Part shown: positions 3,565 to 8,779 of the stretch, in pieces
How the letters are laid out: the number at the start of each line of letters is the position of its first letter
Position numbering within the stretch: the first letter of the stretch is position 1
NCBI GenBank assembly: GCA_903916735.1
Contig: CAIWXX010000094.1
Coordinates: 1-64,000 of the forward strand
DNA length: 64,000 bases
Reading direction: 5' to 3'
Source: an uncultured Acidobacteriota bacterium
Lineage (GTDB): Bacteria > Acidobacteriota > CAIWXX01
Position numbers and translations under genes: made by a program
The notes under the pieces: model-generated
What the model was told of the DNA's origin: nothing
Database searches by the model: none
The model's input: the letters and a program-made list of their open reading frames with translations, nothing else

Positions 3565-3951
3565 ATGTCGTATTGCCCTATATGCCGAGCCGAGTACGTT
3601 GAAGGGGTTGCCATGTGCCAGGAATGCACGGTCGCGCTGGTTGACTCGCTGCCGGATGAAGAAGGCTCGGCCGCCGGCCGGATGAGCGTGGATCTTGTGG
3701 AAATATTCACGGGGCCGTTTTTCCAAGTGGCCCTCTTTCGTGGATATTTGGAAGAACAAGGGATACCGTCGGTGATCTACGAGGCTGATCCCTATTCAAT
3801 GATGGTCGGCGCGGATGCCCAACCACCATTTCAGCGCTTGCAGGTTTCGCGGGAAGATTACGAGAAGCACCGTGAAATGATTGATGATTGGAAGAAGCTC
3901 GTGAATTCCGCCGCAGAGGATTCTGCTCTCGGCAATTCAGAAGAGCAGTAG
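3565..3951 (+). CDS. Zinc-ribbon plus DUF2007-like small protein
   Basis: 128 residues, cytoplasmic. An N-terminal zinc ribbon is made of CPIC (Cys4, Cys7) and CQEC (about residues 18-21). It is followed by a DUF2007-like domain of the 'putative signal-transducing protein' type: EIFTGPFFQVALFRGYLEEQGIP, then a VSREDYEKHREMIDDW helix. In this family the fold is ACT/ferredoxin-like and the biochemical role is unknown. It is divergent from hisS and alone, with 263 featureless bases after it before the PilB-like genes. Function is not assigned beyond the domain match. Confidence 0.85.
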   Translation: MSYCPICRAEYVEGVAMCQECTVALVDSLPDEEGSAAGRMSVDLVEIFTGPFFQVALFRGYLEEQGIPSVIYEADPYSMMVGADAQPPFQRLQVSREDYEKHREMIDDWKKLVNSAAEDSALGNSEEQ

Positions 3952-4214: not shown

Positions 4215-5930
4215 ATGGATGAGTATCTCATCGACTGCTGGAACTGTACTGGCCAGTATGACGCGCGGGCCGCTGTCTGGTGTAATTGTGATCCGCGCAA
4301 TCCGACTAAACTCTGCCCGTATTGTCTGCAGTGCTTCTGTGCCGCCAACCGGGAATATCTGATCAAATTCTGGAAGAATGCGCCGCTTCAACTCCAGCAG
4401 GAAAAATTCCAGCTGAACAGTACTCAAGGCCAACTTGGTCACATCCTCGTTTCAACGGGTCTTGTATCTGTACAACAGCTCATCGATGGCCTGGCGCACT
4501 CGAAGGCGAACGGGAAGAAGCTCGGAGAATCAATGGTCGAGCTTGGCTTTATCCTTGAATCTCAGATGAACCAGGCGCTTGAAAGACAGTGCGAGTTGAC
4601 AGGGGCAGTCCCACGACCGGCGGCGCAGACGATCGCTCCGAAAGAAGGCGCAGCACATGCGGGAGTTGCTCCTCCAACCACGTCTCCGGAGGCCTCGCGC
4701 ATCACTCCTTCTCCGACACCTCTGTCGAGCTCATCGCCGGACCTTCTCAAGGATGCCCTTAACAATCTCCTTGTCGCAGCGCTTAAAAAACATGCATCGG
4801 CTCTTTACCTGGAGCCCACCGGCGGCGAGGTCACCGTTCGTGCGAGAATCGATGGAATCCTGGTCCGCTTGAAATCACTTCCGGCCGACTGGTTGCCGGG
4901 CCTTATGCAACGGATCAAACGCATGGCTCATCTTGATCCGGAGGAACTCAAGATTCCGCAGTCCGGGCGATTCAGCTTGCGGATGGGCGAAAGATCCTAT
5001 GACATCATGTTACAGACTCTCCCTAGTTCCGTCGGCGAGGGAGCGGGAATACGGATTATTGATCGTAGCCGCCTTAAGCAGGAGCTTCCCTCGCTCGGAT
5101 TTGAACCCGCCGACTACGCGAAGTTCATCCACGCCGTTGATAGCGATCGCGGACTCATCATCCTGACTGGGCCGCACTTCAACTCGGTGACAGAAACGGC
5201 CTATTCCATCCTTAACCATCAAGCGATGAGAAATCGCAAAGTTGTTTCGCTGGAATCGCCGATTGCTTCGGCCCTCACCGGCGTCAACCAGTTGGAAGTG
5301 CAGGAGGGTGATAGAGCTGCATTTGTTCGTGCATTGAAAACCCTTTTAAATATGAGTCCTGATGTGGTATTTTTGAGTGATTTGCCAGATGGAGAGATTT
5401 TGAAAACTGTGTCTCGAATTGCTTCGGCTGTGCAGGTCTTTGCATCGATTGACTGTCCGACAACGTTCCAGACTTTGGAACGGCTGCGGGCTTTCGATGT
5501 GAGCGTGGTGCAGCCGCTGGCGGCGCTGCAGCTCATCGTGAGCCAACGTGTGATCCGCCGCAATTGCTCTCACTGCCTCGAACGGACTCCGATCACTCCT
5601 TCGCTTGCGGCCGAAATGGGCCTTGACCGCGATGAAATGCATCTGACCCCCGAAGTGGCCATGTGCCGGGGATGTTCCCATTGCAATGATCTTGGGTACA
5701 CGGGGACCAAGATGTTGTACGAAACCATGGCGATTGATGATGAGATTCGCGAGATTGCACGTTCCAACGGCACACAGGAGGATCTGGAACGCGCTCTCAC
5801 GAAGCAGGGGTTTATATCGCTTCGGATGCTCCATCTCCGGGAGGTCGCGAAGTTGTCGAGCAGCCCAGAGGAATACATCCGGGGTGCGTATCCGCGTCCT
5901 GTCCTCAAACGTATCTTCAGAGTAAAGTAG
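4215..5930 (+). CDS. PilB/GspE-like pseudo-ATPase with N-terminal eight-Cys module (first of pair)
   Basis: 571 residues. Residues 1-45 hold Cys at 8, 11, 23, 25, 34, 37, 40 and 42, likely metal binding. Residues about 70-130 resemble half an MshEN domain with two LGxxLVxxG-type repeats, and a Pro/Ala/Ser-rich linker follows. From about residue 185 the sequence follows the type II secretion/type IV pilus ATPase fold. The Walker A position reads G319-P-H-F-N-S-V-T, where the catalytic Lys is Val325. The Walker B GEIRD block reads S-D-L-P-D (388-392). The His-box histidine is Asp (FASIDCP). The C-terminal zinc finger (CSHC, CRGC) is kept. ATP hydrolysis is therefore unlikely; a regulatory or scaffold role in a pilus/secretion machine is inference. 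Six bases separate it from its paralogue. Confidence 0.85.
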   Translation: MDEYLIDCWNCTGQYDARAAVWCNCDPRNPTKLCPYCLQCFCAANREYLIKFWKNAPLQLQQEKFQLNSTQGQLGHILVSTGLVSVQQLIDGLAHSKANGKKLGESMVELGFILESQMNQALERQCELTGAVPRPAAQTIAPKEGAAHAGVAPPTTSPEASRITPSPTPLSSSSPDLLKDALNNLLVAALKKHASALYLEPTGGEVTVRARIDGILVRLKSLPADWLPGLMQRIKRMAHLDPEELKIPQSGRFSLRMGERSYDIMLQTLPSSVGEGAGIRIIDRSRLKQELPSLGFEPADYAKFIHAVDSDRGLIILTGPHFNSVTETAYSILNHQAMRNRKVVSLESPIASALTGVNQLEVQEGDRAAFVRALKTLLNMSPDVVFLSDLPDGEILKTVSRIASAVQVFASIDCPTTFQTLERLRAFDVSVVQPLAALQLIVSQRVIRRNCSHCLERTPITPSLAAEMGLDRDEMHLTPEVAMCRGCSHCNDLGYTGTKMLYETMAIDDEIREIARSNGTQEDLERALTKQGFISLRMLHLREVAKLSSSPEEYIRGAYPRPVLKRIFRVK

Positions 5931-5936
5931 AGAATT

Positions 5937-7790
5937 ATGGTCGACTATGTTATCCAATGCTGGAACTGCCTGGGTGAGTTTGACGTCTTCTCCGCGGTTT
6001 GGTGCGGCTGCGATCCCAAGAACCCGACGAAGCTGTGTCCATTCTGTCTGAACTGTTTCTGCAGCGCTTCGGCCGAGTATAAAGGACAATTCTGGAAGAA
6101 TGCGCCGCGGCAGCTGGTTGAGGAGAGGGCGACACTCACCAAATCCAAGGACCTTCTCGGCGATCTGCTCGTCCGGACTAAAAAGATCACCACGGATCAG
6201 CTTCTGATCGCACTCAAGCAGCAGAAACTGACAGGCGAGAAACTTGGCGAAGTACTCGTCCGAAACTGTTTCATCTCCCGCGACGATCTCGAAACCATCC
6301 TGGCGCAGCAGCAGCGCGTTCTGACGATCGACCTCAAGAACAAAGCAGTCGACGCGTCCCTCGTGCAAACCCTCGGTCTCGATTTCTGTTTCCAGCACAA
6401 GGTGATCCCAGTCGAGCGGGAATCGCTCCCTAATAAAAACCTGACAACGATGGCGATGGCGAACCCCTCCGATGTCGCCGCCATCGAATGGGCTCAGAAA
6501 CGACTGAGCTCGCAGATCCTCCCGATGCGCGCTCTCGAAGAGGAAATTATCGAGCATCTGAATTCCTTCAGAGCTCATGGTATTTCCGACTCCGGGGCGC
6601 CGATTGAAGGAGCGGCCTCATCTGATGCCGTCCTCCTCGAACAGAAAACCAAGACCGCCCTCAATAATCTGCTTGCGACAGCACTGCAGACAGGTGCCTC
6701 TGATCTTCATATCGAGCTCGGACCGGCGGAAATACTCGTGCGAGCACGCATCGACGGCGTTCTCTTCAAAATGCAGCCTATTTCAAAGGAGCTTGAAGCG
6801 CCGCTCTTTGCCCGGCTTAAGTCTCTGGCCAAGTTGAACGCCGAAGAACGAACGCTGCCTCAAGCGGGGAAAATCCCGTTCAAATCCTCGTCCACCGAAT
6901 ATGAATTGCAGGTCCAGACTTTCCCGACGCCGAGCGGAGAAAGCATCAATCTCAAGGTCATCGACAAGAGCCAGCTCGTGAAGAAACTGGAGGATGTGGG
7001 GCTCAATTCAGTTGAACTAACCTACCTTATCACTGCCGCCGCCGAGCCTCATGGCATCATAATCGCCAGCGGCCCGCTCTTCAACGGCACGCCTACGACA
7101 CTCTATTCACTCATGCAGCATCTGGCGGCCGAGGGGCGAAGGATCGTCTCGATTGAAACAACCATCCAGACGAACCTGGCCGGTGTGACACAGCTTGAAG
7201 TGCGCCCGATCGGCGGATTCACGTTTGACAAAGCTCTCGCCGCGGCTCGGAACCTCGAGCCACAGATGATTTGTATCTTCGATTTCAATGATTCCGAGAT
7301 GGTGCGAGCCGCACAAAAACTCGTCAATTCCGTCCTTCTGGTTGTGGAAGTGGATGCGCGGACGGCGACTCTTGCAATCCCTGCCATGATGAGCCTCGGC
7401 TATCCAGCCCCCGACCTCTCCCGCAATCTGCGGCTGATCCTGAATCAGCGGCTTGTGCGGAAGTTGTGCCAGCAATGCCGCGAGCGACTGGAGCCGTTGC
7501 CGGAGATACTTCAAAAACTCGGTCTTTCAGAAGAAGCCCAGAAGCTGCCGCTGTACAAGGCCAAGGGCTGCCCTCGCTGCCACAACATCGGATATGGTGG
7601 ACGCATCCCGATGTATGAAGTCATTTTTCCGGTGGATGCCATCCGTGAGCTGATTCTGGAGGGTGCCTCACCGGAGGAATTGGAACGGGTCGCGACCCGA
7701 ATGGGCCTGCTCACTCTCGGCCAGAATTGCCTGAACAAAGTGAGTGAAGGATTGACAACGCCCGAGGAGTATTTGAAGGCCGGATTATAA
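5937..7790 (+). CDS. PilB/GspE-like pseudo-ATPase with N-terminal eight-Cys module (second of pair)
   Basis: 617 residues, paralogue of the preceding gene, with the same eight cysteines at residues 8, 11, 23, 25, 34, 37, 40 and 42. It carries a fuller MshEN-like domain (about 65-215), including LGDLLVRTKKITTDQL and the later ALEEEIIEHL part. MshEN domains in active homologues can bind cyclic di-GMP. The ATPase domain again has a ruined Walker A (G379-P-L-F-N-G-T-P, Lys to Thr385) and Walker B (F-D-F-N-D at 448-452 for GEIRD), and Asp in place of the His-box histidine (VVEVDART). The C-terminal CQQC...CPRC finger is intact. The two proteins probably act together, possibly as a heteromeric ring; no partner pilus genes are in the window. 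Confidence 0.85.
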   Translation: MVDYVIQCWNCLGEFDVFSAVWCGCDPKNPTKLCPFCLNCFCSASAEYKGQFWKNAPRQLVEERATLTKSKDLLGDLLVRTKKITTDQLLIALKQQKLTGEKLGEVLVRNCFISRDDLETILAQQQRVLTIDLKNKAVDASLVQTLGLDFCFQHKVIPVERESLPNKNLTTMAMANPSDVAAIEWAQKRLSSQILPMRALEEEIIEHLNSFRAHGISDSGAPIEGAASSDAVLLEQKTKTALNNLLATALQTGASDLHIELGPAEILVRARIDGVLFKMQPISKELEAPLFARLKSLAKLNAEERTLPQAGKIPFKSSSTEYELQVQTFPTPSGESINLKVIDKSQLVKKLEDVGLNSVELTYLITAAAEPHGIIIASGPLFNGTPTTLYSLMQHLAAEGRRIVSIETTIQTNLAGVTQLEVRPIGGFTFDKALAAARNLEPQMICIFDFNDSEMVRAAQKLVNSVLLVVEVDARTATLAIPAMMSLGYPAPDLSRNLRLILNQRLVRKLCQQCRERLEPLPEILQKLGLSEEAQKLPLYKAKGCPRCHNIGYGGRIPMYEVIFPVDAIRELILEGASPEELERVATRMGLLTLGQNCLNKVSEGLTTPEEYLKAGL

Positions 7791-7824: not shown

Positions 7825-8289
7825 TTACTTCCACATTCTTGAGTTGAACGAAAAAGGCCGTTGCGCCGCGAGCTTGATTCTGTCGAAATCAATATGAGCG
7901 GGATTCAGTACGTAATTGAATTCTGATGGAACGATGACCGACGGAACTTTCAGAATCGCGCTCGAGCCGCGGCCGATCCATGCGTTGCCGAGCTCCTGGG
8001 TGGATAGAGGTGGAGGTTCATGCCGCCAATCCCGCGGCACGTCTCCGATCCGCAGAATATCGATTGTGACCCCATCGGGTATCTCCAACCATAATGATAC
8101 TAACTGAAGTCGCCTTGCTGCCTTGTCCAAATGGACAAACTGCTCAAGGGCGGACAAAGCAAGGCTGTCGGAGGCATAGACGACCCTGGTACCGGCGCGG
8201 TTCCACCGTGCGCCAAAAAGGAATGCACCTTCCCCGGTCAATGCAGAAGATATTCGGCGTGCCTTCGTGAGCTTCCACGCCTTGATCAC
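7825..8289 (-). CDS. RES-domain toxin
   Basis: 154 residues. RES-domain toxins degrade NAD+ and stop growth until held by a cognate Xre-type antitoxin. The family pattern is clear: GARWNRAGTRVVYAS near residue 27, then LALSALEQFVH with the conserved Glu, an IPDGV strand, and a late IGRGSSAILKVPSVIVP block. It begins with GTG (8287-8289), which overlaps the antitoxin stop as GTGA, so the toxin is made only after antitoxin translation. Convergent with the PilB-like operon, 34 bases from its end. Confidence 0.93.
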   Translation of the reverse strand: MIKAWKLTKARRISSALTGEGAFLFGARWNRAGTRVVYASDSLALSALEQFVHLDKAARRLQLVSLWLEIPDGVTIDILRIGDVPRDWRHEPPPLSTQELGNAWIGRGSSAILKVPSVIVPSEFNYVLNPAHIDFDRIKLAAQRPFSFNSRMWK

Positions 8290-8729
8290 AATGGTTCACC
8301 ATAATCGATTCGCCCAAGAAGCCGTTCGACCTCTTTCGCACCGATCTCCGTCGTGAGAAGGTTCAGTGGGATACGCATCCCGAGCCCGATCTGAGGGGCT
8401 TGCATCCACTCCTTGGCGGCGACGTCATCTTCGAAGACTTCACGAGCATGAGCATACGCGGATGCAATCCGATAAAGACGGTCGCTGATCACTGGATCGA
8501 GCAACCCACGATGCGATGCCCGATACCGACTGATACTCTTCTGACTGATGCCCAGCGTCGTGGCCATCTGTCGATCCGTCAGACCCGTCACGTCCTTGAT
8601 TTTCCACAAAGATTTCTGCGGGAACCCTTCTGTGATGGCATCGGCCAGGCTCAAACTGGCGGATTTATTCTTGTGCCTCCCAAAAATAGAACTGCCTCCA
8701 AGAAGCTCCACGACATGCTGAGTGCTCAT
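8286..8729 (-). CDS. Xre/MbcA/ParS-type antitoxin
   Basis: 147 residues from the ATG at 8727-8729, chosen because GGAGGG lies just upstream; an in-frame GTG at 8753 is less likely. The N-terminal half is an Xre-like helix-turn-helix (LTDRQMATTLGISQKSISRYR). The C-terminal half is the toxin-binding domain (AKEWMQAPQIGLG, then LLTTEIGAKEVERLLGRIDYG). The family neutralises the RES toxin and represses its own operon, consistent with the inverted repeat upstream. First gene of the two-gene toxin-antitoxin operon. Confidence 0.92.
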   Translation of the reverse strand: MSTQHVVELLGGSSIFGRHKNKSASLSLADAITEGFPQKSLWKIKDVTGLTDRQMATTLGISQKSISRYRASHRGLLDPVISDRLYRIASAYAHAREVFEDDVAAKEWMQAPQIGLGMRIPLNLLTTEIGAKEVERLLGRIDYGEPL

Positions 8730-8747
8730 GATCCCTCCACGACTATT

Positions 8748-8779
8748 GTCCACATCATAGTGGACTCATGACCATTATA
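8748..8779 (-). promoter_or_regulatory. Toxin-antitoxin promoter and candidate operator
   Basis: On the minus strand a perfect TATAAT lies at 8774-8779. Between it and the antitoxin start is a perfect inverted repeat GTCCAC-ATCATA-GTGGAC (8748-8765). The position fits an operator for autorepression. The -35 box is weak. The rest of 8780-8963 shows nothing. Confidence 0.55.

Follow-up and report, generated by a model that had tools for sequence, protein, structure and literature searches.

A conserved family of PilB/GspE-like pseudo-ATPases with an additional cysteine finger in Acidobacteriota

Introduction

Why would a genome keep two adjacent genes for secretion-motor ATPases in which the catalytic residues have been replaced? 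The question is raised by P0001 and P0002, two PilB/GspE-like proteins encoded in a 64,000-nucleotide stretch of DNA (the window; contig CAIWXX010000094.1, assembly GCA_903916735.1) from an uncultured Acidobacteriota bacterium. A sequence-only reading of the window had reported altered nucleotide-binding motifs in both and had suggested selection for a non-hydrolysing role. Our comparisons bear this out: the two proteins almost certainly belong to a conserved, non-hydrolysing family of secretion- or pilus-motor pseudo-ATPases. We name this family class A and define it by an N-terminal eight-cysteine finger, an MshE/GspE-type N-domain and a dead T2SSE domain; within the PilT-like ATPases, its members form a branch of pseudoenzymes with an undescribed finger. 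Kinases and many other enzyme groups include familiar pseudoenzymes. However, our literature searches, which covered dead GspE/PilB families, PilB paralogues of Acidobacteria and the pili of Thermoanaerobaculum, turned up no description of a naturally occurring, conserved family of this kind for GspE/PilB motors. Its interest is solid in that it is conserved, phylum-wide and testable. The analysis also brought out a cysteine domain without family assignment, as well as another family of dead motors, both suited to targeted experiments.

The catalytic set is lost while the fold and zinc site are kept

Motif positions were read from an alignment with the PilB of the window's own genome, and the substitutions listed earlier proved exact: the Walker A lysine is V325 in P0001 and T385 in P0002, the Walker B stretch reads SDLPD and FDFND, and the HIS-box position is Asp (D413 and D473, respectively), with both HIS-box histidines gone. 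The catalytic Glu position after Walker B is Asp in both proteins. Beyond what had been reported, the Mg-coordinating Glu of the ASP box (E357 in Geobacter PilB, PMC5424180) is replaced by Ala in P0001 and Gln in P0002, one Arg-finger position has become Met and Gln, both proteins begin with an eight-cysteine finger and P0001 ends in a basic tail.

The claim that the secretion-ATPase fold and the C-terminal four-cysteine finger persist was equally well founded. Pfam T2SSE is matched with 202.7 (P0001) and 207.7 bits (P0002) against a cut-off of 24.9, CxxC...CxxC is intact in both, and a sequence comparison with solved structures places PilB, PilF and GspE nearest. An AlphaFold2 (AF2) model of P0002 (mean predicted local distance difference test score, pLDDT, 86) places its ATPase region on PilF (5oiu) with a template modelling (TM) score of 0.92 and a root-mean-square deviation of 2.4 over 384 columns, and on AMP-PNP-bound PilB (5tsh) with TM 0.91-0.92. 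Nevertheless, neither protein passes as a canonical motor, with scores far under the NCBIfam cut-offs for TIGR02538 (232 and 285 bits for P0001 and P0002; cut-off 675.65) and TIGR02533 (213 and 267 bits; cut-off 630.25). The description of both sequences as otherwise well kept therefore holds within the family (61% and 75% identity of P0001 and P0002 to their counterparts in a neighbour species) but not against canonical PilB (~30%).

The same pattern extends to 49 homologues of full length. They come from Acidobacteriota and allied candidate phyla and were compared with 38 canonical ATPases from the same genomes. None of the 49 has the Walker A lysine, the Mg-binding Glu of the ASP box, either HIS-box histidine or the Arg finger R278, and the catalytic Glu position holds E in six and D in 31, while the residues lost in the family are present in 100% of the 38 canonical proteins. 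The catalytic columns, invariant in 23 canonical PilB/GspE-type ATPases, drop to low or ordinary conservation in the family (K338 at the 17th percentile, E364 at the 12th and the two HIS-box histidines at the 8th and 26th, in reference numbering), whereas the four zinc cysteines occur in 49/49 and stay top-ranked. Such retention is consistent with the zinc domain being essential for EpsE function (PMC5061722). Every member examined has thus kept the PilB/GspE fold and its structural zinc site while losing the canonical catalytic set and, as judged from the aligned residues, catalysis by the known mechanism would be impossible in the family.

It is very improbable that these proteins are still nucleoside triphosphatases with a relocated lysine or an unusual pocket. 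The first ASP-box Glu stays E in 46/49, the P-loop Pro and the following T-x-Y are retained, and in some Aminicenantes members a K or R precedes the Walker A lysine site by one position, all of which would suit such a pocket. However, the lysine position itself shows no consistent substitute (T, A, S, V, C, L, M and I all occur), and the Mg ligand, the HIS box and the Arg finger have been lost together.

Constraint, distribution and history of class A

Evolutionary rates between the window's genome (G000) and the neighbour species of the same family (G001) indicate that the proteins evolve under strong constraint. The nonsynonymous rate (dN) of P0002 is 0.164, with a synonymous rate (dS) of ~2.0, and both hisS (dN 0.211) and aspS (0.228) evolve faster; for P0001, dN is 0.292 with saturated dS, and dS estimates this high (near or above 2) are rough, making the dN/dS ratios indicative only. 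Low dN/dS, together with the absence of the Walker A lysine from all homologues, supports the proposed selection for a non-hydrolysing role. Local gene decay or a sequencing or assembly error is a negligible prospect: both reading frames are intact, the same changes recur in the neighbour species at the identities given above, and the same losses are found phylum-wide. Relatives with intact GxxGxGKT and GEIRD motifs, the outcome that the sequence-only reading had named as contrary to its proposal, were looked for among the 49 and did not occur, and we found no other point in favour of decay.

Among 60 related genomes, the full-length class A architecture was present in several families. A scan of one genome per species across 84,980 species returned 46 loci, named Acidobacteria/Acidobacteriota, Aminicenantes, Thermoanaerobaculum, Fischerbacteria or Vicinamibacteria, with one Chrysiogenales; the scan used two short patterns that other members could escape. 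The class A protein from the locus titled Chrysiogenales bacterium (L111) closely resembles the one in G033, an Acidobacteriota genome, and is its neighbour on the tree; the label probably reflects a mis-binned metagenome-assembled genome.

The tree separates all 49 pseudo-enzymes from the 38 canonical ATPases by one branch with 100/100 support, so that one ancestral loss suffices, and this topology fits a single old loss of the catalytic residues. The earlier idea of parallel loss in two adjacent paralogues was thus rejected on the trees, which favour a single old loss with the duplication after or alongside it, with the caveat of long branches. P0001 and P0002 each group with their own G001 counterpart (100/100), hence the duplication is older than the split of the two species. 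The two do not group with each other, but at that depth several long branches meet and the order is unreliable. Nor are paired enzymes a general feature, as had been supposed, given that the tandem occurs only in G000 and G001, of one family, while other genomes hold a single gene for a finger-bearing pseudo-ATPase. One genome (G063) has a class A gene plus a separate, far more degenerate finger protein. In a Candidatus Fischerbacteria genome that also holds an ordinary class A member, we observed a finger protein (L126:5965-7632, + strand; same sequence as L159) with an ATPase-like part so degraded that by eye only its cysteine pairs can be recognised.

The eight-cysteine finger

The finger comprises ~66 residues and, in P0002, the cysteines C8, C11, C23, C25, C34, C37, C40 and C42. 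Ten columns are invariant in 27 aligned fingers, including seven of these cysteines, while the C25 position is variable, being Cys, His or Asp in most; the cysteine pairing suggests two zinc sites. The finger has no match in Pfam, and a Foldseek search with its small AF2 model (pLDDT 88) gave no meaningful structural relative (best match E 3.4).

A finger profile matches 39/297 genomes of the phylum. Judged by the length and score of the open reading frame (ORF), 31 of these carry the finger fused to the pseudo-ATPase, and the remainder have short forms or fusions to a receiver domain (finger-REC). The latter, with CheY-like receivers assigned by Pfam in L064, occur in several Acidobacteriota families (L064, L065, L066, L069-L077, L079, L080). 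Class A is also present in 12/18 genomes with finger-REC (Fisher p 2e-9 by genomes, 6e-4 by families), and finger-REC proteins are a possible signalling partner of class A. Moreover, the finger occurs with an MshEN-like domain in proteins of ~220 aa that have no ATPase domain (L123, L124).

A second family of dead motors

A search of the window's own genome revealed a third dead GspE-like gene (G000:C85:55784-57520; L157:791-2521, + strand). It belongs to a finger-less pseudo-GspE family, here named class B, for which a profile was built from six members. Class B was found in 24/297 genomes of the phylum, 23 with scores above 337 bits and one by a partial match, while canonical PilB proteins reached 302 bits at most. 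The GxxxxGK[ST] motif is absent in 24/24, and the two members nearest to the window's genome retain only the lysine at the aligned position. Class A occurs in 20 of the 24 class B genomes compared to 31/297 overall (Fisher p 1e-19 by genomes and 2e-5 by families, the latter over 80 families and with shared ancestry not removed).

Both classes share the fold, the loss of catalytic residues and the lineages in which they occur. Nevertheless, class B lacks the finger, forms a separate group in the tree (support 99 for class A and 57 for class B) and has its own neighbourhood with SPOR-domain or GGDEF genes. In the neighbourhoods inspected (L200, L201, L209, L211, L206), the gene next to class B encodes a SPOR-domain membrane protein in three families (f1, f21 and f47). 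Genes for NfeD and SPFH are close by in f1, and f17 has a GAF-GGDEF protein nearby; BLAST identified a GGDEF cluster common to f47 and f17. Lnt-like genes, named by eye from sequence, were also seen near class B in several loci.

Relation to known motors and possible role

Class A shares with the PilB/GspE ATPases (PilT-like, VirB11 superfamily) the N2D and RecA-like C-terminal domains, the tetracysteine zinc domain, the MshE-type N-domain and the C-terminal helical end. It differs in having no Walker A lysine, no Mg-binding Glu in the ASP box and no HIS box, one Arg finger fewer and an additional N-terminal finger, while P0001 and P0002 further lack the catalytic Glu, lie outside any pil/gsp operon and fall under the NCBIfam PilB/GspE cut-offs. 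An intact PilB-PilT-PilC cluster elsewhere in the window's genome implies that the pair are not its only motors.

We tentatively favour, as a mechanism that in its entirety falls somewhat short of being probable, a PilB-derived regulatory or scaffold protein that is free of nucleotide and uses the finger as a docking module. The protein would be fixed in the nucleotide-free conformation and act by binding rather than by hydrolysis, as a scaffold or a signal-transmitting ring. Input might arrive through the N-terminal finger and MshE domain, either from a finger-REC regulator where one exists or from a ligand of the N-domain, and output would pass through the PilB-like body to one of two targets, the platform or motor of a type IV pilus or type II secretion system, or a pathway for surface polysaccharide. 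The best precedent for signalling by a non-hydrolysing motor is the Walker A mutant K327A of Myxococcus xanthus PilB, which is ATPase-dead yet dominant in exopolysaccharide signalling, and nucleotide-free M. xanthus PilB has been proposed as the signalling-active form (PMC5544727). Both the mutant and class A are PilB proteins without a functional Walker A lysine, but K327A was engineered by point mutation from a motor that works, whereas class A is a natural, separate family that has lost the whole set and gained a finger. In G000 and G001, the tight tandem that arose by duplication makes a P0001-P0002 hetero-oligomer possible.

Cyanobacterial PATAN-REC response regulators act on PilB. They resemble the combination of class A and finger-REC in that a docking module is common to a receiver protein and the pilus-motor side; however, the PATAN-REC module is unrelated to the eight-cysteine finger, and contact between class A and finger-REC proteins is hypothetical.

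Several observations weigh against the docking mechanism with an output on pili or secretion. A profile search found no finger-REC protein in the window's genome, making it an unlikely partner there. The c-di-GMP sensor suggested earlier is backed by the c-di-GMP-motif model NF053729, whose cut-off of 38 both proteins exceed (52.6 bits for P0001, 59.4 for P0002), as in the MshEN c-di-GMP receptors (PMC5013675). Those receptors, however, contain two 24-residue half-motifs, of which P0001 has one and P0002 none by the relaxed pattern of the same authors; the first is altered in both proteins, and the full set of two is found in no member of class A, although nearly all members retain the motif's Gly and Gln. 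The profile check proposed at the outset succeeded for T2SSE in both proteins and for Pfam MshEN in P0002 only; the MshE-type N-domain is shortened in P0001.

Further, the link to a pilus or secretion motor, also part of the sequence-only reading, is suggested by fold and homology and finds no echo in gene order, where no pil/gsp gene was seen beside class A in the sampled loci (~6 kb on each side where the contig allowed). The recognised neighbours are of housekeeping type and differ by clade: hisS and aspS adjoin the pair in the G000/G001 family, and other clades have Icd, HAD and SelA, or a Bat/MoxR-type cluster, PpiC and an HD/OB nuclease-like gene, or GcvT (SelA and HD/OB confirmed by Pfam, several other names read from sequence). 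No neighbour gene family common to all class A clades was found besides class A itself, and the most widespread neighbourhood clusters seem to be the class A gene read in other frames.

These neighbourhoods would suit a scaffold or sensor outside the pilus and secretion world, e.g. an adaptor that responds to zinc or c-di-GMP and serves some other envelope or signalling process. The novel finger that also occurs on response regulators, the finger-MshEN proteins without ATPase domain and the SPOR, SPFH/NfeD or GGDEF genes adjoining class B point in the same direction. Still, we regard this reading as rather unlikely, considering that a pure adaptor would have no obvious need of the whole ATPase body with its zinc site, all of which is conserved.

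Alternatively, the proteins might be non-catalytic subunits in mixed hexamers with the canonical PilB/GspE of the genome, or of P0001 with P0002, where they would tune the speed of the motor or brake it dominantly. The retained fold, the canonical PilB in the genome, the RIDG Arg (48/49), the K or R at the R286/R293 Arg-finger position (48/49) and the zinc domain that EpsE needs would all allow this. On the other hand, R278, R388, R392 and R437, near-invariant in canonical motors, are lost or altered in the family, most genomes hold one unlinked copy, and identity to PilB is low, so we consider mixed hexamers unlikely. On a larger scale, the docking mechanism could be extended to a nucleotide-free signalling system that Acidobacteriota and allied phyla would have made out of pilus-motor ATPases. 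In it, class A, the finger-REC proteins with the same docking module, and class B, encoded with SPOR-domain membrane proteins and diguanylate cyclases, would jointly link c-di-GMP or phosphorelay input to pili or the envelope, a doubtful prospect at this stage.

The gene pair in the window

The features of the pair are listed in Table 1; the two ORFs are separated by 6 bp. The basic C-terminal tail of P0001, YPRPVLKRIFRVK, is present in the neighbour species and absent in the other aligned members.

Table 1. Coordinates of the two class A genes in the window and of their domains and motifs
Feature	Position	Strand	Basis
P0001, first finger + pseudo-GspE protein, 571 aa	4215..5930	+	ORF; Pfam T2SSE 9.3e-60; 61% identical to G001 counterpart, same order
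P0001 N-terminal eight-Cys finger, residues 1-66	4215..4412	+	Alignment; AF2 model of homologous P0002 finger, pLDDT 88
P0001 MshE-type c-di-GMP-motif region, residues 73-125	4431..4589	+	NF053729, 52.6 bits, cut-off 38; second half-motif intact, first altered
P0001 T2SSE domain (RecA-like secretion ATPase), catalytic residues lost	4746..5879	+	Pfam
P0001 former Walker A GPHFNSVTET, residues 319-328, K to V325	5169..5198	+	Alignment
P0001 former Walker B/catalytic Glu SDLPD, residues 388-392	5376..5390	+	Alignment
P0001 tetracysteine zinc site C451 C454 C487 C490	5565..5684	+	Retained in 49/49 homologues
P0002, second finger + pseudo-GspE protein, 617 aa	5937..7790	+	ORF; Pfam T2SSE 2.7e-61, MshEN 2.5e-9; 75% identical to G001 counterpart
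P0002 N-terminal eight-Cys finger, residues 1-66	5937..6134	+	Alignment, AF2 model
P0002 MshEN/GspE N-terminal domain, residues 74-214	6156..6578	+	Pfam and NCBIfam matches
P0002 T2SSE domain, catalytic residues lost	6654..7775	+	Pfam; model superposes on PilB/PilF ATPase cores, TM 0.9
P0002 former Walker A GPLFNGTPTT, residues 379-388, K to T385	7071..7100	+	Alignment
P0002 former Walker B/catalytic Glu FDFND, residues 448-452	7278..7292	+	Alignment
P0002 tetracysteine zinc site C511 C514 C545 C548	7467..7580	+	Invariant in family alignment

Upstream of the pair lies a gene for a small zinc-ribbon protein (3565-3951, + strand) that weakly resembles DUF2007 and matches NF049953 (zinc ribbon-containing (seleno)protein DG) below the cut-off. 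It was considered as a partner and rejected, as it was not recognised at the G001 locus. Directly downstream, on the - strand (7825-8753), Pfam identifies a RES-domain toxin and Xre/MbcA/ParS antitoxin pair.

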